Assembly (NCBI GenBank): GCA_019638115.1
Contig: JAHBUK010000002.1
Location: forward strand, 379,867 to 443,866
Direction: 5' to 3'
Length of the DNA stretch: 64,000 nt
Origin: Flavobacteriales bacterium
GTDB taxonomy: Bacteria > Bacteroidota > Bacteroidia > Flavobacteriales_F > PHOS-HE28
Shown here: positions 24,773 to 37,365 of the stretch, in pieces
Numbering within the stretch: position 1 is the first letter of the stretch
How the letters are laid out: the number at the start of each line of letters is the position of its first letter
Program-made: the position numbers and the translations under genes
Notes under the pieces: model-generated
Told to the model about the DNA's origin: nothing
Databases searched by the model: none
The model's input: the letters and a program-made list of their open reading frames with translations, nothing else

Positions 24773-25525
24773 CTACCAACTAACGCCCGGATACGCCCGT
24801 GTCACATGCTGCATCTCCGCCAGGATGAAGCCCATGTGCTCGCTGTGCAGCCCCTTGCGGCCGCCGGTGGCCATGAAGCCGTCCTCGGGGCGTTTCAGGG
24901 TGGCTTCGGCCAGCACCTCGTCAATGGTCTTGCTCCACGCGGCTTTCACGGCGGTCATGTCGGGTGCGATGCCGGCCTTGGTCATCTCCTCCAGCACGAG
25001 GTCGTTCTCGAAGAGTTCACCTGTGAAGGTCCACAGGTTGTCCAACGCAGCTTGGGCGCGTTGGTGGCTCTCCTCGGTGCCATCGCCAAAGCGGATGATC
25101 CACTCGCTGCTGGCGCGCAGGTGGTAGGTGGCCTCCTTCACGCTCTTGCCCGCGATGGCCGCGAGTTGTTCGTCCTTGCTTTTGGTCAGCGCCTGCATCA
25201 GCGGCAGGTGGTAGGCATCGAAGAGGAAGCTGCGCACCATGGTGTGGGCGTAATCGCCGTTAGGCTGTTCCACCAGTTTCACGCTGGTGTACTGGCGTTC
25301 CATCCGCAGGTAGGCGAGGTCGTCCTCGGTGCGCCCCTTGCCTTCCACTTGTCCGGCATAGGTCAGCAGGTTGCGTGCTTCGCCAAGGTGGTCCAGTGCG
25401 CGGTTGGTAAGGGCGATATCCTCCTCCAGGATCGGTCCATGTCCGCACCACTCACCCAAGCGTTGGCTCAGGATGAGGATGTCGTCGGCGAGGCGGAGGG
25501 TGTAGGTGAAAAGTGCTTGGCTCAT
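24773..25525 (-). CDS. paaC: Phenylacetyl-CoA epoxidase subunit PaaC
   Basis: A 250-residue ferritin-like structural subunit of the phenylacetyl-CoA 1,2-epoxidase, pairing with PaaA. Seen: LRLADDILILSQRLGEWCGHGPILEEDIALTNRALDHLGEARNLL, LLTYAGQ, FLFDAYHLPLMQAL and the end FILAEMQHVTRAYPGVSW. The start MSQALFTYTL at 25525 is typical; the longer frame runs into repeat DNA. It is separated from paaB by a 186-base repeat-filled spacer and from paaD by the inserted pair. Confidence 0.93.
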   Translation of the reverse strand: MSQALFTYTLRLADDILILSQRLGEWCGHGPILEEDIALTNRALDHLGEARNLLTYAGQVEGKGRTEDDLAYLRMERQYTSVKLVEQPNGDYAHTMVRSFLFDAYHLPLMQALTKSKDEQLAAIAGKSVKEATYHLRASSEWIIRFGDGTEESHQRAQAALDNLWTFTGELFENDLVLEEMTKAGIAPDMTAVKAAWSKTIDEVLAEATLKRPEDGFMATGGRKGLHSEHMGFILAEMQHVTRAYPGVSW

Positions 25526-25711
25526 TGCTATTGCAGGTTGAGAGTTGGAGGTTGGAGGAGTTGGGGGTTGGGCGGCAATTCTCAAACTTCCTCAACGATG
25601 AACCCTCAGTATTTCAAGGATACTCAAGGGTTGGCAAGTTGGGAGTTGGAGGAGTTCGGTGTTGGCAGCAACACTCAACCCCCGCCAACTCCCAACATCT
25701 CTCAACCCTCT
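25526..25711. repeat. GTTGGAG-type repeat spacer with inverted arms
   Basis: The whole paaB-paaC spacer is built from variants of GTTGGAG and GGGTTG. A block at 25536-25572 recurs directly at 25628-25665 and in inverted form at 25672-25709, so a long imperfect hairpin can form. No coding content. Confidence 0.85.
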
Positions 25712-26008
25712 TCAAATGTATTTCGCACCCTCAGGCATCGTGTAGAACGTGGGGTGGCGATACACCTTGTCATCCGCCGGGTCGTAGAAGCTTTCGGCGT
25801 CCTCGGGGCGGCTGGCGTGGATGTGCTCGCTCTTCACCACCCAGATGCTGTTGCCTTCCTGGCGGCGGGTGTACACATCGCGTGCGTTCTCGATGGCCAT
25901 GTCTGCATCGGCGGCGTGCAGGCTGCCCACGTGTTTGTGGTCGAGGCCACGCTTGCTCTGGATGAAGATCTCCCAGAGGGGCCAGTTGTTCGGGTTTTCT
26001 GAACTCAT
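25712..26008 (-). CDS. paaB: Phenylacetyl-CoA epoxidase subunit PaaB
   Basis: A 98-residue subunit that bridges the PaaAC catalytic units. The family pattern is clear: WPLWEIFIQSKRGLDHKHVGSLHAADADMAIENARDVYTRR, then IWVVKSEHIHAS and the C-terminal YDPADDKVYRHPTFY. Full length. It lies between paaA and paaC on the minus strand, with a repeat structure on both sides. Confidence 0.95.
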   Translation of the reverse strand: MSSENPNNWPLWEIFIQSKRGLDHKHVGSLHAADADMAIENARDVYTRRQEGNSIWVVKSEHIHASRPEDAESFYDPADDKVYRHPTFYTMPEGAKYI

Positions 26009-26043
26009 TAGTTTGTGGTGTCGGCGATACTATTGGTCGGGCT

Positions 26044-26134
26044 GGGTAGTCGTAAGTGATCAGTCGTTAGTGGTTAGTGGCCAGTACCGCGACTTGGCCA
26101 CTAACCACTAACGACTAACGACTAGCGACTACCC
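26044..26134. repeat. 41-base inverted repeat between paaA and paaB
   Basis: Arms 26044-26084 and 26094-26134 match at 34 of 41 positions around a nine-base loop. Both arms consist of repeated AGTCGTTAGTGGTTAGTGG-type units. It nearly fills the 130-base spacer and ends five bases from the paaA stop. It could stabilise or attenuate the polycistronic message. Confidence 0.92.
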
Positions 26135-26138
26135 ACTA

Positions 26139-27080
26139 TCATGCGGCTTTGCGTTTGGCTTTCTTGGCGGCGTAGGCCACGGCTGCTTCGCGCACCCAGG
26201 CACCCTCATTGTGGGCCTTGTTGCGAGCCGCGAGGCGTTCCTTGTTGCAGGGTCCGTTGCCGGCCACCACATTGTTGAATTCGGTCCAGTCGATGGTGCC
26301 CCAGTCGTAGTGCTTGGTCTCTTCGTTCCACTTCAGGTCGGGGTCGGGTATCGTAAGGCCGATCACTTCCGCCTGTTGCACGGTGCGGTCGATGAAGGTC
26401 TGCCGCAACTCATCGTTGCTCTGGCGCTTGATCTTCCACTTCATGCTCTGCGCGCTGTGCGGGCTGTTGGCGTCTGTGGGGCCGAACATCATCAGGCTGG
26501 GCCACCACCAACGGTTCAGGGCATCCTGAGCCATTTCCTTCTGTTCGGGGCTTCCTTTGGCCAGTACGGCCATGATCTCGTAGCCCTGACGCTGGTGGAA
26601 GCTCTCCTCCTTGCAGATGCGCACCATGGCACGGGCGTAGGGGCCATAGCTGGTGCGGCAGAGCATCACCTGGTTCATGATGGCGGCACCGTCCACCAAC
26701 CAGCCCACTGCACCGATGTCGGCCCAGGTGAGGGTGGGGTAGTTGAAGATGCTGCTGTACTTGGCCTTGCCGCTCAGCAGGTCGTCGATGGTCTGCTCGC
26801 GGCTGGTGCCCATGGTCTCCACAGCGCTGTAGAGGTAGAGGCCATGTCCGGCTTCATCCTGCACTTTAGCAAGAAGTATGGCCTTGCGCTTCAGGCTGGG
26901 TGCGCGGCTGATCCAGTTGCCTTCGGGCAGCATGCCCACCACCTCGCTGTGCGCGTGCTGGCTGATCTGGCGGATCAGATTCTTGCGGTAGGCATCGGGC
27001 ATCCAATCCTTGGGTTCGATCTTCTGTTCGGCGTCGATCTTGGCTTGGAAGATGTCCTCCAGATTCTTCACGTCGGTCAT
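26139..27080 (-). CDS. paaA: Phenylacetyl-CoA epoxidase catalytic subunit PaaA
   Basis: A 313-residue diiron monooxygenase subunit that epoxidises the aromatic ring of phenylacetyl-CoA. The four-helix metal site is visible as [17 protein letters not shown] and [15 protein letters not shown]. Also [19 protein letters not shown] basic lysine-rich tail ends the protein. The ATG at 27080 ([11 protein letters not shown]) is the family start; the frame continues upstream without similarity. First gene of the minus-strand paa run and divergent from paaE. Confidence 0.95.
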
Positions 27081-27207
27081 GATGTGCCTTTCGTTTTGCG
27101 GTTGGCTAAGATAGGAGAGCGATCTGCTCGCTTCACTGATATCGGTCACTTCGCGAACGATCCTGGGGCTTCTCTGGTTCACTGGCACCCACCTTTCGTG
27201 GGACTTC

Positions 27208-27215
27208 TATTTTTG
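27208..27215 (+). promoter_or_regulatory. -7 element for paaE
   Basis: TATTTTTG matches TAnnTTTG and ends 11 bases before the paaE ATG at 27227, so the message has a very short leader. Confidence 0.6.
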
Positions 27216-27226
27216 CGCCCCCTATC

Positions 27227-28324
27227 ATGACCACAACCCGGATGGCTCGCTTCCACACCCTTACCGTATCGCACGTTCACGCTGAGACCGCGAACAGCAT
27301 TGTGGTCGGATTCAAGATCCCCTTGGAACTCCGCGAGGATTTCCGCTTTGTGCATGGGCAGTACCTCACCTTGAAGCTGACGGTGAATGGAGAGGAACTG
27401 CGCCGCAGCTACAGCATCTGTAGCAGTCCCCTTGACCCCGATGAGATCCGCATCGCGGTTAAAAAGGTGCCCGGCGGAAGGGCTTCATCGGTTCTGGTGG
27501 ACAAGCTTCAACCGGGTATGACCTTGGACGTGATGACACCCATGGGCAATTTCACGACCGCCTTGATACCTGGTGCTCAAAGGCATTTCGTGGCGTTCGC
27601 AGCGGGTAGTGGAATAACGCCGATCCTCAGCATTCTGAAAACGGTTCTGCGCACTGAATCCGAAAGCCGATTCACCTTGTTCTACGGTAACACCGATGTG
27701 GATCGGATCATCTTCCGCGAGAAGCTGGAGGAGCTAAAGGCTCAATATGGCGACCGACTGGGGGTGCACCATATCCTGACCTGCGGAACCAACGAAGACA
27801 TGCTCTTCAACGGGCGGATAACCAGGGAGAAGGCAGCCCAGCTATTGGGGCGCTTTGTCAGCGACAGCCTCGATAAGGAGTACTTCATCTGTGGGCCGGA
27901 ACAGATGATGGTGAACGTAAGTGAAGCCCTCGAGGACCAGGGCGTGGAGAAGAAACGCATCCACGTCGAACTATTCACCACACCGGTGACCAGCGACGCC
28001 AAAGTTGCCCCAGTGGCCGTTGGGGATGGGGCATTCACAGGGATCTCCAAAGTGAAGGTCATCATTGACGGCCGCGAGTCCGTTCTGGACATCCCCGCCA
28101 GTGGCGACCCGGTATTGGATGTGGCACTGGATGCCGGTCTGGACGTGCCGTACGCATGCAAAGGCGCGGTTTGCTGCACTTGCAAAGCACGAGTGGTGGA
28201 AGGGCAGGTGGAGATGGCCATGAATTACGCCCTTACCGATGAGGAAGTGGAAGATGGCTATGTGCTGACTTGTCAGACACACCCACGCTCGGCGAACGTA
28301 ACGATCGACTACGACCAGCACTAA
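27227..28324 (+). CDS. paaE: Phenylacetyl-CoA epoxidase reductase PaaE
   Basis: A 365-residue reductase passing electrons from NADPH to PaaA. Domains in order: FAD-binding barrel (RRSYSICSSP, KKVPGGRASS), NAD-binding domain (VAFAAGSGITPILSI, FICGPEQMM) and a C-terminal plant-type 2Fe-2S domain with four cysteines in YACKGAVCCTCKARV and VLTCQTHP. Faces away from paaA with 146 bases between. Start at 27227 follows the promoter element; an ATG at 27242 is possible. Confidence 0.95.
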   Translation: MTTTRMARFHTLTVSHVHAETANSIVVGFKIPLELREDFRFVHGQYLTLKLTVNGEELRRSYSICSSPLDPDEIRIAVKKVPGGRASSVLVDKLQPGMTLDVMTPMGNFTTALIPGAQRHFVAFAAGSGITPILSILKTVLRTESESRFTLFYGNTDVDRIIFREKLEELKAQYGDRLGVHHILTCGTNEDMLFNGRITREKAAQLLGRFVSDSLDKEYFICGPEQMMVNVSEALEDQGVEKKRIHVELFTTPVTSDAKVAPVAVGDGAFTGISKVKVIIDGRESVLDIPASGDPVLDVALDAGLDVPYACKGAVCCTCKARVVEGQVEMAMNYALTDEEVEDGYVLTCQTHPRSANVTIDYDQH

Positions 28325-28510: not shown

Positions 28511-29059
28511 TCAGAATGTGGCGCTTGCGATACCGGCCAGGCGCGTTTGTATGTGCGAGAGGTAGTGCTCACTGTGGTAGAAGCCTCCCATCTCATCGCT
28601 CCACTTCACAATGGCGGAAGGAAAGTCGGTGTAGAAGGGGTCGGCCAATTGGGCCTGGGCGGGCTGGAGGTTGACGTAGCACTCATAGTCCGGGTACTTC
28701 ACCAGGTCTTGTGGCAGGCGCGTGTCCACATAGATCATCTTGGGCTGGCAGCCAGGGGAAGTGATGTACAAAGTGAACATCTGGTCGATGTCCAACTCCA
28801 ACTCGAACCGTCCTTTCTTGGTTGCCACCTTCCCAAGCTCAACATTGTCCTTGAACAAGGTGAGCTCGAACTTCTCGGTCTTCTTGCCTTCCACGAACAC
28901 GAAGCCGTGAACCGGTAAATACCATCCTTCAGCTTGTTCGCGGCTATCGACCAAGGTCTTTTGCGCACTGGCCGTGGAAGCTGTGAGCAGCGAGAACAGC
29001 GTGACAACAAGCCCTGTTTTCAGGCTGCATTTCACGGGAGAGTGAGTGAATGCGTTCAT
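28511..29059 (-). CDS. Exported protein of unknown function
   Basis: A 182-residue protein with a signal peptide ending ASTASAQ. The mature part begins with a small beta-rich domain (FVFVEGKKTEKFELTLFKDN) like a carboxypeptidase-regulatory fold, then ITSPGCQPKMIYVDTRLPQDLV and PDYECYVNLQP, a pattern I associate with uncharacterised Bacteroidota envelope proteins. Stand-alone gene between the paaE terminator and the sensor-kinase operon. Confidence 0.75.
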   Translation of the reverse strand: MNAFTHSPVKCSLKTGLVVTLFSLLTASTASAQKTLVDSREQAEGWYLPVHGFVFVEGKKTEKFELTLFKDNVELGKVATKKGRFELELDIDQMFTLYITSPGCQPKMIYVDTRLPQDLVKYPDYECYVNLQPAQAQLADPFYTDFPSAIVKWSDEMGGFYHSEHYLSHIQTRLAGIASATF

Positions 29060-29118: not shown

Positions 29119-30660
29119 TCAGGCGACCTTGAATAGCGGTGAGTGGGCGGTCGCTGCCTTTTGCATCGGCAGTGCAACGAAAACGGTCGTGCCGACACCT
29201 GGGGCGCTTTCAGCCCAAACACGTCCGCCATGCTTGCCTACCACGCGCTGCACAATGGCCAATCCAACACCGGTCCCTTCAAAGTGATCGGGGGCGTGCA
29301 GTCTCTTGAAGATCCCGAAGACTTGGTCGTTGTGTTTGCTGTCGAACCCCACGCCGTTGTCTTTTACATGGAGCACATGCATGCCATCCTTTTCGCAAGC
29401 TCCGATCTCGATCCTCGGCAGGCTTTCCTCCCTGGTGAATTTCAACGCGTTTGAAAGGAGGTTGTGCAGCACCACCTTCAGCATGGGGGCATCCGCCTGA
29501 ATGAGGCAATTGCCGGGTATGTCCACGATCAATTGGTCACGCCGTTCTTCGGGCACTTGTTCCTCGATCGTTGTGGCGATGAGGTCGGCCAGCAGGACAT
29601 CGCGCAGTTCCAGTTCACGCGTATTGGTCTGCGAAAAGCGCAGCAGGTCATCAACCAATTCCACCAGTCGCTGCGCCCCCTTTTGGATGCGCTGGGTATA
29701 AGCGGCTCCCTCCGTGTCCTTATGCTCCAGCGAGTGCATTTGAAGCATGTCGCTGAGCGCAATGATGTTCTTCAACGGAGAACGAAGGTCATGTGCAACA
29801 GTGTACGAGAAAGAGCCCAGGTCCTCCAATGCTTCAAGCAATTGACTTGTACGGACGGCCACCCGCTTATCAAGGTCGGAGTTGAGCTTCATCAAGCGTT
29901 TCTCCTCTTGTTTTCGGTCTGATATGTCTTTGATGATCGCTTGGAACAACTCGCGACCATCGGCATGTTTGCCCAGGTAGTTGGCTGTCATCAAGCAATC
30001 GATCAGGTCGCCTTTCTTGTTGCGCAAAGTCAGGTCGACGTTCACGAATTGATCACCTTCTCGTCGCTGCTTCAGAGACCTTACCAGTCCCCTGGGGTCT
30101 TGCAGGTGGTCGCCGAAGCGGGTCGTTAGTAGATCCTCGCGGGAGATGGCAAGAAGTCTTGCGCAGGCTTTGTTCGCATCGTGTATGGCGCCTCTTTTAT
30201 CCACGATCACGATCGGATCACCGGATGCCTCGAACACCTGTTTGAACTGGTGTAGCAGCTTGTCCTTGTCCTCCCTGAGCTGTTGTATCTCATAGGCCTG
30301 CTCCACGCGAAGTTTAAGGTCGTTGGCATCCCATGGCTTCGTTGCGTAAGCATAGATGCCGCCTTCGTTCACCGCTTGTACCACTGCTTCGAGGTCGGCG
30401 TATCCGGTCAGCAGCATGCGCATGACCTGCGGAAACCGCTTTCGGGCAATTGCAAGGAACTCCGAACCGGTCATGCCAGGCATGCGCTGGTCGGAAACGA
30501 TGATGTGAACGGACTCGCGTTCGAGCAGTTCAAGTGCCTCGGGGCCGGAAGCCGCAATGAACACCTCCCAGTCTCGGCGGAAAGTGGACCTGAAAGCTTT
30601 CAGGTTCCCTTGCTCATCGTCAACGAAAAGGACGCGGATACGATCGGAACTCATGGTCAT
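29119..30660 (-). CDS. Receiver-PAS-histidine kinase hybrid
   Basis: A 513-residue cytoplasmic signalling protein. Order: receiver domain (residues about 8-125; VLFVDDEQGN, phospho-acceptor in IIVSDQRMPG), PAS sensor domain (about 140-260; GDPIVIVDKRGAIHDANKAC), HisKA with the histidine in VAHDLRSPLKN, and HATPase (NLLSNALKFT, DNGVGF, GTGVGLAIV). A receiver at the N-terminus of a kinase suggests it is itself controlled by an upstream kinase, probably the 7TMR kinase 18 bases upstream in the same operon. No DNA-binding output. Confidence 0.92.
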   Translation of the reverse strand: MTMSSDRIRVLFVDDEQGNLKAFRSTFRRDWEVFIAASGPEALELLERESVHIIVSDQRMPGMTGSEFLAIARKRFPQVMRMLLTGYADLEAVVQAVNEGGIYAYATKPWDANDLKLRVEQAYEIQQLREDKDKLLHQFKQVFEASGDPIVIVDKRGAIHDANKACARLLAISREDLLTTRFGDHLQDPRGLVRSLKQRREGDQFVNVDLTLRNKKGDLIDCLMTANYLGKHADGRELFQAIIKDISDRKQEEKRLMKLNSDLDKRVAVRTSQLLEALEDLGSFSYTVAHDLRSPLKNIIALSDMLQMHSLEHKDTEGAAYTQRIQKGAQRLVELVDDLLRFSQTNTRELELRDVLLADLIATTIEEQVPEERRDQLIVDIPGNCLIQADAPMLKVVLHNLLSNALKFTREESLPRIEIGACEKDGMHVLHVKDNGVGFDSKHNDQVFGIFKRLHAPDHFEGTGVGLAIVQRVVGKHGGRVWAESAPGVGTTVFVALPMQKAATAHSPLFKVA

Positions 30661-30678
30661 TTGATGCGCTAATGGGAC

Positions 30679-32817
30679 TTAAGCCCGTTTCAAGGCGATG
30701 TTCTGCTGGCGAAGGGGCAGGGTAATGCGGAATTCGGACCCGGCTCCTGGCATGGACTCCACCTCGATTTGTCCATGGTGGTCCTGTATGATGCCGTACA
30801 CGATCGCCATACCCAGCCCGGTTCCTTCGCCTACGGCTTTGGTGGTGAAGAATGGGTCGAACATCCGAGCCTTCACTTCTTCGGTCATACCGATGCCATT
30901 GTCGGAAATGCGGATGCTTACGTAACCCTGGGTGCAGCTGGTGTGTACCCGAACTACGCGCTCCTTCAGATCTGGCCGCGCAAGGGTGGCTTGAACAGCA
31001 TTGGTAAGGATGTTCATGAAGACCTGGTTCACTTTGCCCGGGTAGCATTCTACCATTGGCAGCTCTTCCAAGGTCATATCGAACTCGACCTGATCGCGGT
31101 ATTGGGGAGCCAGAACGGTCAACGTACTGCGCAAGCCAAGGTTGATGTCCGCATCTTTCAGGTCGTTCTCATCAAGGCGCGAGAAGTTCCGTAAGCCACG
31201 CACGATCTCGGCAGTACGCGACGAACCTTCGGCTATGCTGCCAATGATATCGTCCAGCTCGGCAATGGACTCATCGAGCCCGAGCCGATCCGCCCGACCG
31301 CGCAATTCGGCCAGTTGTTCCGCAGCACGTTCCACCTCAATGCTCCGATATCCTTCCATCATGGATACGATATCCTCGATGTTCCTGCGGAGCGGTGCCA
31401 CATTGCTGGTGATGAAGTTGATGGGGTTGTTGATCTCGTGCGCAATACCAGCAGTGAGCTGACCGAGTGAAGCCATCTTCTCGGCGTTCACCAGTTGGGT
31501 CTGTGTACGCTTCAGGTCATCGTTACTGGCCTGAAGTGCTTGGGTACGTTCCTTCACTTTGGTCTCTAGTATCGCGTTCTGCTCGCGAATGATCCGCTCA
31601 TTCTCCAAGGAAGCGGCAAGAGCTTGTGCCTGTGATGCCTCCTTCTCACGCCGCAGTACGTTTATGCGATCGGCCAGACCGAAGGAGAGGAGAACGCCTT
31701 CGATGGCGGAACCGATAGGCATGGTGTATAAGGTCCAAGCGTTGTATGGCAATATGCCTATGTCCTTGAGCACAAAGACCACTGTTCCGATCAAGAACAC
31801 ACTCCATGCTACCAAGAAGAACCCTGCTTGACGTGAGCCCTTTCTCCAAACGGTGAAGACCAGATAGAGAAGGAAGGATGCATAAACCCCGGATATCAAC
31901 TGCGTGAGTAGATATGCTATGATGGAGGCTCCCGATATCTGTAGAACTATGCAGATCGTGAAGAGCAAATAGAATGGTCTTACGACCCTATCCAAATGAG
32001 GGGCAAAGGCACGTGGTTGAATGAACGTGCGAGTAAACTCTGTGGCTAGAATAGCCGTAAGTATGGTAAGCAAAACTGTAGCCTTGGTCGCCAACCAGGG
32101 CAGGTCTGGCCATAGGTAGAATGGCGCAGTTCCGCTGAAAGCCAATTGGGTAAGTCCTACGGAAAGTATGTATACAACATAGAGCAGATAGCTCTTGTTT
32201 CTCATTGAGAGATAGATGAAAAAGTTGTACAGAGCCATGACGAACATGATGCCTAGGAACATCCCCAGATAGAGGTTCCTCGTCATTCGTCCCTGGGCAT
32301 GGATGGTTGGCGTTGAAAGAACTATCGGAACTTGAAGTTGCTTGTCACTTCTTACCCGAATTAGTGCGCCAGCAGTCGTGCCCGGATCGATACGTAGTCT
32401 AAACGATAGCTCCTTGTCCTCCTGAATACGATCGGCCAAGGGTAATGCCAAACCGGATTTTCCGACCAATAGAGGTCCGGATGTTGAGCCATCGATTTGG
32501 TATACCTCGATCTCGTCGATGTCCGCATGAGATACGTGCAAAACGATGTCAGCGTCCACACCATCGTTCACGACGTTCAATCGAAGCCAATAATAGCTGC
32601 TGCTCAATCCAAGATTAGGAACCTCGGTTTGGAAATAGGGGAGACCTTCAAGCTTGGCGGCCGAACTAGGGGACAAGGTGCCTTCCACGTCCTCTATGTA
32701 GGTGACGTGTCGACCAAGTGGAATAGAGGATCCTTTTCCATCGAAGTGGAAAGGGCCTTGGGCGGAAACCCATAAAGGGGCAAATAGGACCCCAATAGAC
32801 ACACTGCGGAGCAACAT
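30679..32817 (-). CDS. 7TMR-DISM sensor histidine kinase
   Basis: A 712-residue membrane sensor. Signal peptide (residues 1-19), extracellular 7TMR-DISMED2 jelly-roll domain (about 25-165), seven transmembrane helices (about 185-395), a coiled coil, then HisKA with the histidine in LTAGIAHEINNPINFI and HATPase with NILTNAVQAT, DNGIGM and GTGLGMAIV. The extracellular domain in this family is thought to bind carbohydrate or small ligands. The sensor half is visibly AT-richer than the kinase half. Lies between the acyltransferase-like gene and the hybrid kinase. Confidence 0.94.
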   Translation of the reverse strand: MLLRSVSIGVLFAPLWVSAQGPFHFDGKGSSIPLGRHVTYIEDVEGTLSPSSAAKLEGLPYFQTEVPNLGLSSSYYWLRLNVVNDGVDADIVLHVSHADIDEIEVYQIDGSTSGPLLVGKSGLALPLADRIQEDKELSFRLRIDPGTTAGALIRVRSDKQLQVPIVLSTPTIHAQGRMTRNLYLGMFLGIMFVMALYNFFIYLSMRNKSYLLYVVYILSVGLTQLAFSGTAPFYLWPDLPWLATKATVLLTILTAILATEFTRTFIQPRAFAPHLDRVVRPFYLLFTICIVLQISGASIIAYLLTQLISGVYASFLLYLVFTVWRKGSRQAGFFLVAWSVFLIGTVVFVLKDIGILPYNAWTLYTMPIGSAIEGVLLSFGLADRINVLRREKEASQAQALAASLENERIIREQNAILETKVKERTQALQASNDDLKRTQTQLVNAEKMASLGQLTAGIAHEINNPINFITSNVAPLRRNIEDIVSMMEGYRSIEVERAAEQLAELRGRADRLGLDESIAELDDIIGSIAEGSSRTAEIVRGLRNFSRLDENDLKDADINLGLRSTLTVLAPQYRDQVEFDMTLEELPMVECYPGKVNQVFMNILTNAVQATLARPDLKERVVRVHTSCTQGYVSIRISDNGIGMTEEVKARMFDPFFTTKAVGEGTGLGMAIVYGIIQDHHGQIEVESMPGAGSEFRITLPLRQQNIALKRA

Positions 32818-32862
32818 GGCCCCGTGATACGGCTATGTCCGTAGCACGGTTGCAACATTACT

Positions 32863-33612
32863 TCACGCGGAATGTCGCAGGCGTTCGGCTTCAATATTCT
32901 GATACGCGTGCAGGTCTATGGTATTCTCGTTCATCTGCATATCGTAGTGTACCTCGAATTCTTGGTTCGCTGGTACTTCACTACGCACCTGTCGAGGACG
33001 TAGCCTCAGGCTGTAAAGTAGCTGGCGTTGCTCCATAGATGCATGCGGAAGCAACATCGTGTCGGGGTTTAGCATTGCCACTGCGGTAATCGTAGGGATA
33101 GGGTAGATGAAGGTTCCCTTGTCTCCGATCTCTTCCATAACGATGAACCCGTTCCGCTTGGGATGCCGTTGGGTGTAGGTGGCGACCAAACAGACCATGC
33201 GCCGCACTGAGACCATCGTAGCCATTGCTGTCACAGCTTGGCTTAGCAACACGGTTACTCCTTTCTGCGCATACCGGTTAGCGTTCCAAAGGCTGCAAAC
33301 CTCTCCGAGACCTTCTTCGACCATCGAGTCCAATTCGGTCTTGATACGGGGATCCAACTTGCCGATCGCCGATTCCATCGGAAGCGGCTCCTCATGAGTA
33401 GCGATCTGAAGTCTGATACCACCGACCATTCCGAGGTCATCGTGTAGGGCCACGATCAAGCAGGCATTCGGGTCTTTCAGCCAGCTCTCGGAGTTCGTGG
33501 TCACATTGGCAATGCCAAAATCCTCCAAGACACGTCGGTGTTCTTGCAAGAATTCTGCAGCCAGTGACGGGTTGTTTGGTGCCCTGAAGGCTTTGAGCGT
33601 AATCTTTTCCAT
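32863..33612 (-). CDS. Putative N-acyltransferase (GNAT/FeeM-like)
   Basis: A 249-residue cytoplasmic protein. ACLIVALHDDLGMVGGIRLQIAT looks like the central GNAT beta-strand motif seen in FeeM N-acyl amino acid synthases and acyl-homoserine-lactone synthases, and EVCSLWNANRYAQKGV and AMATMVSVRRMVCLVATYTQRH follow where those families place the next helices. Fold assignment is tentative. Start at 33612 follows the ThiF-like gene by 13 bases, so the two are co-translated or nearly so. The neighbouring kinases suggest the product could be a signal. Confidence 0.6.
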   Translation of the reverse strand: MEKITLKAFRAPNNPSLAAEFLQEHRRVLEDFGIANVTTNSESWLKDPNACLIVALHDDLGMVGGIRLQIATHEEPLPMESAIGKLDPRIKTELDSMVEEGLGEVCSLWNANRYAQKGVTVLLSQAVTAMATMVSVRRMVCLVATYTQRHPKRNGFIVMEEIGDKGTFIYPIPTITAVAMLNPDTMLLPHASMEQRQLLYSLRLRPRQVRSEVPANQEFEVHYDMQMNENTIDLHAYQNIEAERLRHSA

Positions 33613-33625
33613 GGCTAAATGGATT

Positions 33626-34783
33626 TCAGATTTCCAGAGTTCTGTCTTTGACAGCTTTGGATGGTTCCAAAGCTGTAACGGGACTGATTTGAACATCCAA
33701 GTCGGTCCACCAGCGACCGGAGCAATTGAGCTCGTTCAGGGCGATTCGTTTCCAGGCATCGCCAACTAATGCACCACCTAGCACAACTCCGCTGGCCAAC
33801 TGAGGCCACGTTACAATGCTCTTCCCCAACTCGGGCAGTGAGGCTTTCATGCGGTGACTCAAGGTGTCCATCCCCACCATCTGGGCCAGGAAGGGAAGCT
33901 TTTCCTCATTCGTCATGGGACGGTCTTCAGGCACCGGTGGCAGGTCCTCGATAAGGCCGTGCAATAAAGGCCGGTCCGGCTCCAGGTCGAAACGTTCTAC
34001 ATCGACAAGGCCACGGTCGCTGGTATCCATGATCACTGGGATCTTGAACTTCTTGGCACACTGCCGCGCGAAGATCTTCACATCCACACTGTCGCACTCC
34101 TCAATAAGCACGTCCAACTTCCCACCTTCGGTGAGGAATGCATCGATGTTGTCACGATCTATTCCCTCCTTGTAGATGGTCACCATAAGGAAGGGGTCCA
34201 ACTCGACGATCTCCCGTGCGGTGTTGATCACCTTGGGCACGCCCATTTCGTGAACGCCGCTGCGGATACGATTCAGGTTGCTTAGCTCCAGCGTGTCGAA
34301 GTCCGCCAAGCGGATCTCTCCGAAGCTGCGCTCCAGGGCCATTGTGAGACTCACGCTTTGGCCTACGCTCAGGCCGATCACGCCAACTTTCTTGGTAGCC
34401 AGAATGGCCTGCTCCTCGCGCGTGATCTTGTTGCGGTTCCGGTCGGTGCGGACCATGGCGAACTCGGCCTCGTCCAACAGGTGCACCAGGCGGAAGTTCC
34501 AGGGGTAATAAACCCAAACGCCATATTCGGCAGACGGTATGCCCTTTAGGTGGGCATGTGCGGCCTGGTCCAACTCATCCTTGCTGAACTTGGTGGCAGG
34601 GTGGAGCGAACGGACCAACTCGGTGAGCTGGCCATGGAGCGTGTCGTGCACGATCACACGCGGTTCGCGCTTCAGCAAAGCCTCCATCCTGTCCTTGTCC
34701 ATGGGCAGGCGGAAGAACTCCGGCCGGTAGGTCTCCCGGTCGGTTGCTGAAGCGCCTTGAAGGGCTTCGAGCAGAGCGGTCAT
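33626..34783 (-). CDS. ThiF/E1-like enzyme (Rv1355c-type N-terminal half)
   Basis: A 385-residue protein with an E1/ThiF adenylation domain at about residues 125-330: KKVGVIGLSVGQSVSLTMAL is the nucleotide-binding loop, then IRLADFDTLELSNLNRI with the conserved aspartate and arginine, and IVELDPFLMVTIYKEGI. It resembles Rv1355c-family proteins, which carry an additional nitroreductase domain; here that domain is absent. No CxxC zinc pairs and no obvious catalytic cysteine. The start at 34783 is fixed by a complete promoter between it and an in-frame ATG at 34852. Confidence 0.82.
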   Translation of the reverse strand: MTALLEALQGASATDRETYRPEFFRLPMDKDRMEALLKREPRVIVHDTLHGQLTELVRSLHPATKFSKDELDQAAHAHLKGIPSAEYGVWVYYPWNFRLVHLLDEAEFAMVRTDRNRNKITREEQAILATKKVGVIGLSVGQSVSLTMALERSFGEIRLADFDTLELSNLNRIRSGVHEMGVPKVINTAREIVELDPFLMVTIYKEGIDRDNIDAFLTEGGKLDVLIEECDSVDVKIFARQCAKKFKIPVIMDTSDRGLVDVERFDLEPDRPLLHGLIEDLPPVPEDRPMTNEEKLPFLAQMVGMDTLSHRMKASLPELGKSIVTWPQLASGVVLGGALVGDAWKRIALNELNCSGRWWTDLDVQISPVTALEPSKAVKDRTLEI

Positions 34784-34824
34784 GAAGAGTGTCGAGTGAG
34801 CTGTCCAAGGTTCTCTCGCAGGGT

Positions 34825-34854
34825 CAAATGTATACAACCGCGACTTATTCACAA
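34825..34854 (-). promoter_or_regulatory. Complete promoter of the ThiF-kinase operon
   Basis: On the minus strand TTG (34854-34852), 19 bases, then TACATTTG (34832-34825), the Bacteroidota -33/-7 arrangement. It lies 41 bases before the ThiF-like ATG. Confidence 0.75.
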
Positions 34855-34928
34855 GTTTTCAACAAAATATCAATAAGAAAGTGCCGGAACCTTTCCTGTA
34901 TGGCTTCGTTCCAGTGGTCCACAACTCC

Positions 34929-35429
34929 ATGCGTACGACCATGAGTGCAGCAACTCCGATACCCTATCTGGCGCCTAAGCCCAACGTGGTTTTCGTGGAC
35001 GACGACGCAGGGAACCGCCAGGCTTTCCTATCCAGCTTTCGCACGTCCATGAACGTGTTCACAGCATCCTCTTTGGATGAGGTGATGGCGCTTCTGGAGA
35101 GCCGGACCATTCATGTTGTAATAGCCGACCAACGAATGCCAGGCACACGCGGCAGTGAATTGTTGACCCTGGTGAAGGAGCGCTTCCCGAACGTGCGGCG
35201 TATGTTGGTAACGGCATACGCCGACCTTGAAGCGATCATAGAAGCCGTGAATAGTGGAGGGGTTACCAAGTACTTCTCCAAACCATGGGTTCAAGAACAG
35301 ATCGTGTCCGCAGTGGATAAGGCCTATGAAGAGCACGAAGCGGAAAGCGAGCGTGAGGAACGCATGAAGCGCTTGGAGGATGCCAACAGGCAATTGGAGT
35401 TCGCCCTGCGTCAACGCTTGTTATCATAG
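34929..35429 (+). CDS. Stand-alone response regulator receiver
   Basis: A 166-residue protein that is almost all receiver domain: NVVFVDDDAGNRQAFLSSF, the phospho-acceptor in HVVIADQRMPGT, LVTAYADLEAIIEAV and the conserved lysine in YFSKPW, then a short coiled coil (EREERMKRLEDANRQLEF). No output domain. It is closely similar to the receiver of the hybrid kinase in the divergent operon, so it is probably a phosphate sink or relay partner. Starts at 34929 or 34941. Confidence 0.88.
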   Translation: MRTTMSAATPIPYLAPKPNVVFVDDDAGNRQAFLSSFRTSMNVFTASSLDEVMALLESRTIHVVIADQRMPGTRGSELLTLVKERFPNVRRMLVTAYADLEAIIEAVNSGGVTKYFSKPWVQEQIVSAVDKAYEEHEAESEREERMKRLEDANRQLEFALRQRLLS

Positions 35430-35492: not shown

Positions 35493-35496
35493 TCCC

Positions 35497-37365
35497 ATGA
35501 TCGATCCATCGTACGGCCGCCTTTTATTTCTGCTGATAGCCTCGTTCTCCGTATCCGCAGTGGAAGCTCAATGTGATCGCTGGCAACAGCGTGTCCGGTA
35601 TACCATGGACGTTGCGCTTGACGTGAAAGAACACCGGTACAATGGCAACGGGACTTTGACGTACATGAACAACAGCCCGGATACCCTGCGTGAGTTGTTC
35701 TTCCATTTGTACTTCAATGCCTTTCGGCCGGGAAGCGAGATGGATGTAAGGTCGCGGACGATAGAAGATCCGGATAGCAGGGTGGGGGCGAGAATAGCGG
35801 AACTGAAGTCCACCGAGGTGGGCGAGCTGGTGGTGGCCCGCATGAGCCAGCAGGGTAAGCCGGTCGTTCTGGAGCACCTTGGTACCGTACTGCGTGCCAC
35901 GCTTCCGCAAGCCTTGTTGCCGGGCAAGAGCACTACGCTCAATTATGAATTCACTGGCCAGGTACCCGTGCAGATACGCCGCAGTGGGCGCAACAGCAGC
36001 GAGGGTGTTGCGTACAGCATGACGCAGTGGTACCCCAAGTTGGCGCACTACGACCAACGTGGCTGGCATGCGTACCCGTATGTGGGACGTGAGTTCCATG
36101 GGGTGTGGGGCGATTTCGATGTGAAGCTGACCATGGATAGTGCCTACACCATTGCAGCCACCGGAGTGCTCCAGAATCCCGAACAGATCGGCCACGGCTA
36201 CCCTGCGAAGAAGGCCTTGAAACGCCCTGCGGGAGATAAGCTCACTTGGCGCTTCATGGCCAAGGACGTGCATGACTTTGCTTGGGCCGCCGATCCGGAC
36301 TACGTCCATTTCATCGAAACAGTGCCCAACGGGCCCACGCTACACTTCTTCCACAAGAACGACCCCGAACTCGCTGCCGTTTGGAAGGACCTGCCCGGCC
36401 ACATGGTGAAAGCGCTCCGGTACATGAATGAGCATTTCGGCACTTACCCTTGGCCGCAGTACAGCTTTGTGCAAGGTGGCGATGGTGGCATGGAGTACCC
36501 GATGCTCACGCTCATTACCGGTAAGCGTCGGATAGGAAGCCTGGTGGGTGTGAGCGTACACGAGTTCGTACACAGCTGGTACCACGGCATGCTCGCCAGC
36601 AACGAGGGGCGCTTTCCATGGATGGATGAAGGGATGACCCAGTACGCCAGCAGCAAGGTGATGCAGCACCTATTTCCCCGGAGCGAGGCGCCACACGCCA
36701 GTGCATATCGAGGCTACGAGGCGCTGGTGGCAAGTGGCAAGCACGAGCCGCCCATCATCCATGCGGACCACTTCGCCACGAATATGGCCTACGGTGTGAC
36801 GGCCTACAACTTCGGGGAGCTGTTCGTACACCAACTGGGTGCGGTGATCGGGGAGGAGAACCTGGCCGCCGGCATGTTGCGCTATACCAAAGCCTGTGGT
36901 TTCAAGCATCCGGAGCCCATCGACTTCGAGCGCGTTATGGAGAAGCAGAGCGGGCTGGAGCTCGATTGGTACTTCGATCAATGGATCAACACCACCCGCA
37001 CGCTTGACTACGGTATCAGAAGCATCATGGAAGTGGATGGCGAACTGCGCATCACCCTGGAGCGGAAAGGGGAAATGCTGATGCCAGTGGACGTGGTGGT
37101 CGAAAAGCACGACGGGAGTAACGTTGCTTACCACATACCACTAACACTCATGCTCGGCGCCAAGCCCGCAGGTGGGGAGTCCTGGTCATTCACCGCATTG
37201 CCTGCTTGGCAATGGACGGATGCGACTTACACTTTTGCGGTGCCTGGCCGTATCGGCCAAGTGTCTGCCGTTACGATCGACCCGCTGGACCGCACCGCGG
37301 ACATCGACCGCAGCAATGATCGGGTGGTGTTTCCCGCAGGGGCGGGTGGCTTCGTGAAGCCATAA
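35497..37365 (+). CDS. Secreted M1-family metallopeptidase
   Basis: A 622-residue exported aminopeptidase. Signal peptide ends near SVSAVEAQ. The N-terminal beta domain includes YNGNGTLTYMNNSPDTLRELFFHLYFNAF; the exopeptidase motif region is GGDGGMEYP (the GAMEN equivalent), and zinc binding is VSVHEFVHSWYHG with the downstream glutamate in FPWMDEGMTQY. The C-terminal helical and beta parts follow; there is no T9SS sorting domain. It probably trims peptides in the periplasm. Confidence 0.92.
   Translation: MIDPSYGRLLFLLIASFSVSAVEAQCDRWQQRVRYTMDVALDVKEHRYNGNGTLTYMNNSPDTLRELFFHLYFNAFRPGSEMDVRSRTIEDPDSRVGARIAELKSTEVGELVVARMSQQGKPVVLEHLGTVLRATLPQALLPGKSTTLNYEFTGQVPVQIRRSGRNSSEGVAYSMTQWYPKLAHYDQRGWHAYPYVGREFHGVWGDFDVKLTMDSAYTIAATGVLQNPEQIGHGYPAKKALKRPAGDKLTWRFMAKDVHDFAWAADPDYVHFIETVPNGPTLHFFHKNDPELAAVWKDLPGHMVKALRYMNEHFGTYPWPQYSFVQGGDGGMEYPMLTLITGKRRIGSLVGVSVHEFVHSWYHGMLASNEGRFPWMDEGMTQYASSKVMQHLFPRSEAPHASAYRGYEALVASGKHEPPIIHADHFATNMAYGVTAYNFGELFVHQLGAVIGEENLAAGMLRYTKACGFKHPEPIDFERVMEKQSGLELDWYFDQWINTTRTLDYGIRSIMEVDGELRITLERKGEMLMPVDVVVEKHDGSNVAYHIPLTLMLGAKPAGGESWSFTALPAWQWTDATYTFAVPGRIGQVSAVTIDPLDRTADIDRSNDRVVFPAGAGGFVKP

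Follow-up and report, generated by a model that had tools for sequence, protein, structure and literature searches.

TrzAS (Rv1356c-Rv1355c) is the tryptazolone pathway of mycobacteria and rhodococci, and its products are N-acyl tryptazolones (PMC12856293). Tryptazolones mostly stay in the cells and hydrolyse easily (PMC12856293), and a diffusible signal is therefore not favoured. In Mycobacterium tuberculosis, trzAS adjoins c-di-GMP genes, and signalling has been mentioned as a possible role on that ground, with the role left open; what acyl-oxazolones do has been named as a major question still to be answered (PMC12856293). The tyrazolone pathways TyzABC and OxzAB (PMC10404671) share with the locus described here the logic of N-acylation followed by ATP-dependent cyclisation; they differ in that TyzB and OxzB belong to a ThiF subcluster other than that of TrzS (PMC12856293). 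In the Phc operon of Ralstonia (phcB-phcS-phcR-phcQ), the signal comes from the methyltransferase PhcB, PhcS is a membrane kinase, PhcR carries both a kinase and a receiver domain, and PhcQ consists of a receiver alone (PMC8578825). The NasY clusters of stieleriacines and thalassotalic acids resemble the present locus in their genes for an N-acyl amino acid synthase, ThiF and a nitroreductase, and differ, as far as the available portion of their description goes, in that sensor kinases are not mentioned (PMC12479983).

In this study, an operon in a 64,000-nucleotide stretch of Flavobacteriales DNA (hereafter the window) was compared with these systems. The sequence-only reading had known of no described system with this composition. 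This holds for the kinase-coupled form of the acyl-oxazolone module, of which no description was found in the open-access literature. It does not hold for the biosynthetic half, because the enzyme chemistry of the operon is of a known kind, namely that of the TrzAS, TyzABC and OxzAB acyl-oxazolones (PMC12856293, PMC10404671). The new part is the signalling half, that is, a kinase-coupled, desaturase-variable module in Bacteroidota, and since the combination is conserved across many families of the phylum, it may represent an undescribed chemical signalling system. The window locus shares with TrzAS a ThiF cyclase of the same family (458 bits to the Rv1355c model) and an adjacent FeeM-fold acyltransferase. 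It differs in lacking the desaturase half, in an acyltransferase similarity that is seen at profile level only, and in its 7TMR-DISM kinase; no such kinase is reported for TrzAS, which has c-di-GMP genes as its neighbours. At a Rhodococcus plasmid locus, a GGDEF gene adjoins the acyltransferase.

The four minus-strand genes encode a ThiF/E1-like cyclase (33626-34783), a putative FeeM-like N-acyl amino acid synthase of the TrzA/TyzA type (32863-33612), a 7TMR-DISM sensor histidine kinase (30679-32817) and a soluble receiver-PAS-histidine kinase (29119-30660). All lie where they had been placed before, and the successive gaps of 13 bp (33613-33625), 45 bp (32818-32862) and 18 bp (30661-30678) were confirmed. 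The complete promoter proposed before the operon is also there, as an exact Bacteroidota-type TTG-N19-TACATTTG at 34854-34825 on the minus strand; the pattern has two matches in the whole window with both strands counted, and its exact form stands near the ThiF start in just one of eight same-genus loci examined. A GTG start at 34852, giving a 408-aa ThiF version, falls within this promoter, and most alignments of same-genus ThiF homologues begin at about residue 19-31 (five of ten at query residue 24, which is ATG 34783). Translation therefore most likely starts at ATG 34783, downstream of the promoter, and yields 385 aa. A possible fifth operon gene (28511-29059, minus strand) follows 59 bp past the fourth; its apparently exported 182-aa product has no family match in Pfam or NCBIfam, and its position is kept in nearly all same-genus loci and, as far as seen, in the genus of the window only. 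Beyond it, the region 24773-28324 looks like a gene group for phenylacetate degradation (paa), accompanied by a divergent gene for a ferredoxin reductase, an assignment made by eye only. On the other side, an M1-type peptidase gene (35494-37365) adjoins the divergent receiver gene, a position kept in most loci of the genus.

The ThiF protein scored 57.6 bits with PF00899 (Pfam) and 458.5 bits with the NCBIfam Rv1355c family (NF005901), the latter over residues 36-399 only and model positions 1-349 of 722. It thus stays just short of the curated cut-off of 476 bits because the second half of the protein is missing, which agrees with the earlier description of an Rv1355c-like E1 enzyme without the nitroreductase half. 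The ATP-site motifs GLSVG, ADFDxLELSNLNR, EECDS and TSDRG are common to the window protein and actinobacterial Rv1355c proteins, as for a TrzS-type cyclase, and D231 of EECDS is, by position only, a candidate counterpart of TrzS Asp217. A ubiquitin-like defence E1 was rejected, as no PADLOC E1-E2 model scored above 25.5 bits, compared with 458 for Rv1355c, and the operon has no E2, JAB or UBL gene.

No flavin desaturase half was detected in the window or elsewhere in the 4.06-Mb genome (best E 0.185). A desaturase encoded elsewhere was ruled out, since all four nitroreductase-family matches of the genome are unlike the TrzS half. With no fused or adjacent flavin-dependent oxidase, the window locus is a desaturase-less variant and not a full trzAS. 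Most Bacteroidota relatives keep the fused flavin desaturase, as TrzAS does, and ten other same-genus genomes of the class sample have a frame of about 790 aa here, the fused form. The fusion was present in 85 of 131 loci and ThiF alone in 37, two of which (L126, L128) belong to close relatives; on a quick ThiF tree the forms change into one another about 11 times. One apparent 'desaturase-only' module (L114) was discarded as an assembly break, the gene being cut by the contig end and the ThiF part lying on another contig of the same genome. TrzS gives a cyclised, saturated compound under oxygen limitation or with a mutated oxidase (PMC12856293), so cyclisation can stand alone. As the desaturase half is absent from the genome, a saturated oxazolone is therefore the natural prediction for the window species.

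The 249-aa product of the second gene matched PF21926 (FeeM) weakly, at 16.8 bits against a gathering cut-off of 27 bits, and had no sequence match in PDB. Comparison of its predicted structure with FeeM/LuxI folds had been set in advance as a test, and the AlphaFold model (pLDDT 92.9) showed this fold, in keeping with the GNAT/FeeM-like assignment. FeeM (2g0b) was the best match (VIA Z 17.2 over 173 residues), a value that does not by itself single out FeeM because ordinary GNATs score within 1 Z unit. The AHL synthases BjaI, LasI, TofI and MesI were among the top Foldseek matches, with Z of 15-16 to LasI, BjaI and TofI. The predicted fold is thus shared with FeeM and the LuxI/BjaI synthases, but sequence identity is 8-17%, the PF21926 score is below cut-off and the window operon has no LuxR-type receptor. 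FeeM and BjaI are likewise the nearest folds of TyzA of M. tuberculosis (PMC10404671). The adjacency of a FeeM-fold acyltransferase to ThiF corresponds to the trzAS arrangement, with a weak profile link to the actinobacterial gene: on actinobacterial Rv1355c loci, a profile of 122 Bacteroidota acyltransferases picked the Rhodococcus gene beside Rv1355c (E 1.3e-4) and, weakly, a neighbouring gene in the Nocardia Rv1355c locus (E 0.025), both standing at the TrzA position. A plasmid search by acyltransferase sequence gave no match. Production of an N-acyl amino acid product by the operon is well supported by homology.

Pfam domains of the remaining genes agree with the earlier assignments. The third gene encodes a 712-aa 7TMR-DISM kinase with a DISMED2 ectodomain, 7TM region, HisKA with the active-site His, and HATPase; its HEINNP motif is invariant in 31 relatives. 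The fourth gene product (513 aa; REC, PAS, HisKA, HATPase) is a soluble kinase rather than a membrane sensor, and the divergent plus-strand gene (34941-35429, about 162 aa) encodes Response_reg only, with no output domain. No DNA-binding output gene or regulator was found among the Pfam domains of the module. A fold search with the 7TMR-DISM kinase model was filled by matches to kinase domains, and the sensor half was not resolved. 7TMR-DISM proteins number one to a few per genome, and in each of 11 genomes of the window's genus exactly one PF07695 protein occurs, always in this operon. In a tree, the 84 module kinases were fully separate (support 0.76) from 19 further kinases of the 7TMR-DISM type in the class.

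With a receiver-kinase and a lone receiver beside a membrane kinase and a synthase, the window has the Phc-like composition: synthase, membrane kinase, soluble receiver-kinase without a DNA-binding domain and lone receiver stand in the same order, and four Bacteroidota genomes have a SAM methyltransferase as tailoring gene. However, the synthase and sensor of the window come from other families, with ThiF where Phc has a SAM methyltransferase as signal synthase, and the resemblance to Phc is an analogy, not homology or membership.

A survey of relatives, proposed at the outset as a check, found that ThiF co-occurs with the kinases in both a class sample and a named genome scan. Among 295 Bacteroidia genomes, the ThiF protein was present in 52 and the acyltransferase in 55, with 21 family codes (about 20 families) represented. 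In loci with room downstream of the acyltransferase, a 7TMR-DISM kinase of this one clade followed directly in 50 of 51 cases (class sample) and 71 of 73 (named scan), with the receiver-kinase next in 41/49 and 65/70 loci with room, respectively; the oppositely oriented lone receiver was seen in 42/51 and 52/73. The receiver-kinase is about 365 aa long in most other families, against 513 aa in the window, and outside the genus of the window an additional small receiver closes the majority of modules. The same gene order was also found outside the class but within the phylum (L257). For a minority of ThiF genes (L100, L104, L115, L141, L195, L201), neither an acyltransferase nor a kinase was detected in the vicinity; L100, L104, L195 and L201 are ThiF-nitroreductase genes, and the L104 genome carries an acyltransferase-kinase pair on another contig (L120). 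Two records, titled Brevibacillus borstelensis (L167, ThiF alone) and Blastocatellia (L141, fused), hold this ThiF family at 56-57% identity without the kinase module, through transfer or contamination.

The tailoring enzyme is exchanged in several modules that lack ThiF. A class I SAM methyltransferase lies between the acyltransferase and the 7TMR kinase in L116, L117, L118 and L259, and an ICMT-type methyltransferase does so in L119; these modules possibly make N-acyl amino acid methyl esters. Because the pair is kept when ThiF is replaced, the constant core would appear to be acyltransferase and receptor, with a variable enzyme masking the carboxylate as a ring or ester.

Co-variation between the kinase and the tailoring type was analysed with 115 columns from each part at 87 loci, and fused or short ThiF status was scored as changes on trees. 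The status required 9.9 changes on trees of the sensor half, against 12.4 for FeeM, 12.8 for the lone receiver, 13.2 for the receiver-kinase and 13.9 for the kinase half, and in these 87 loci the host family agreed less well with the sensor half than with the kinase half. A run with 122 kinases gave the same outcome. Resolution alone is not the explanation, since the 7TM part shows the co-variation at a column variability equal to that of FeeM and the receiver-kinase. Linkage alone does not explain it either, because it is missing from the lone receiver, whose gene is often the closest to ThiF. A point against the co-variation is that, within the kinase gene, the sensor half is the part closest to the biosynthetic genes. 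The effect is modest and the replicates are resamplings of one realised history, so that the tracking of tailoring type by the sensor half, somewhat better than by other parts, is suggestive only. A nearest-neighbour version gave a mixed result and was dropped as support.

Our preferred reading, to which we give a probability of roughly 45%, is that the operon both produces and perceives a small lipophilic molecule, an N-acyl amino acid derivative read by a dedicated relay. The earlier proposal that an activating enzyme and an acyltransferase make a small molecule was upheld, as a known acyl-oxazolone pathway type; its second part, that the product is sensed, is what the conserved linkage and the suggestive co-variation point to. 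Substrates, product, binding of the product by the kinase and output of the relay are given here as we infer them. The FeeM-like enzyme would transfer an acyl group, supplied as acyl-CoA or acyl-ACP, onto an amino acid; the analogy to TrzA, TyzA and OxzA makes an aromatic one probable. ThiF would then adenylate the carboxylate of the N-acyl amino acid, leading to ring closure to a 5-oxazolone, which would be saturated in the window species after loss of the desaturase half and the 2,3-dehydro form in most sister species. The 7TMR-DISM kinase may bind the oxazolone through its ectodomain or its 7TM region and would then hand on phosphate, with the receiver-PAS-kinase and lone receiver as acceptors.

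In the main alternative, the biosynthesis is the same, the kinases respond to an outside cue, such as envelope stress, antibiotics or sugars, and the product whose level they control is no signal but an antibiotic or a membrane lipid. It is a serious possibility, at somewhat below even odds. 7TMR-DISM kinases elsewhere sense other things, and their ectodomains vary widely, with sugars or ions as frequently proposed ligands. The divergent receiver and the kinases lie in the operon region of the enzymes, as would a local regulator, and oxazolone production is antibiotic-induced in some proteobacteria while N-acyl tyrosines are antimicrobial (PMC12856293). However, the module has no DNA-binding regulator, its kinase remains paired with the acyltransferase where another tailoring enzyme has taken over, and its sensor half follows the tailoring type better than other parts do, as far as the suggestive co-variation goes.

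Shared inheritance of neighbours, with no functional tie between product and kinase, could account for the linkage insofar as much of the spread could be vertical and scattered losses can leave adjacent genes side by side. A gene order that stays the same across 21 family codes, a pair kept in tailoring swaps and a distinct kinase clade are hard to obtain without selection, and this explanation is improbable. Decay of the pathway in the window species into a non-functional remnant, to which the desaturase loss and the fused form of the other same-genus genomes could point, is very unlikely given intact reading frames, conserved catalytic motifs, recurrent ThiF-only loci and the saturated compound that TrzS gives when desaturation fails.

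Reading the operon as one that makes and senses its own molecule extends, tentatively and short of even odds, to a widespread Bacteroidota signalling system, in which an N-acyl amino acid with its carboxylate masked as oxazolone or methyl ester would be read by a co-encoded, product-matched 7TMR-DISM kinase in a quorum-sensing-like role. Bacteroidota are major environmental bacteria, and to our knowledge few self-made small-molecule signals have been described for them. The module is carried by, among others, Chitinophaga, Pedobacter, Mucilaginibacter, Parapedobacter, Daejeonella, Arcticibacter and Cryomorpha. Of these, Chitinophaga, Pedobacter, Mucilaginibacter and Daejeonella are culturable, and their biosynthetic genes with a receptor-like kinase alongside offer a direct way to test a signalling role. 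A record titled Azovibrio restrictus MAG (L202) holds a typical Bacteroidota module. Its genome groups with Bacteroidota, so that it was set aside as a route into Pseudomonadota, the search having covered Bacteroidota again, and the record name is probably wrong.
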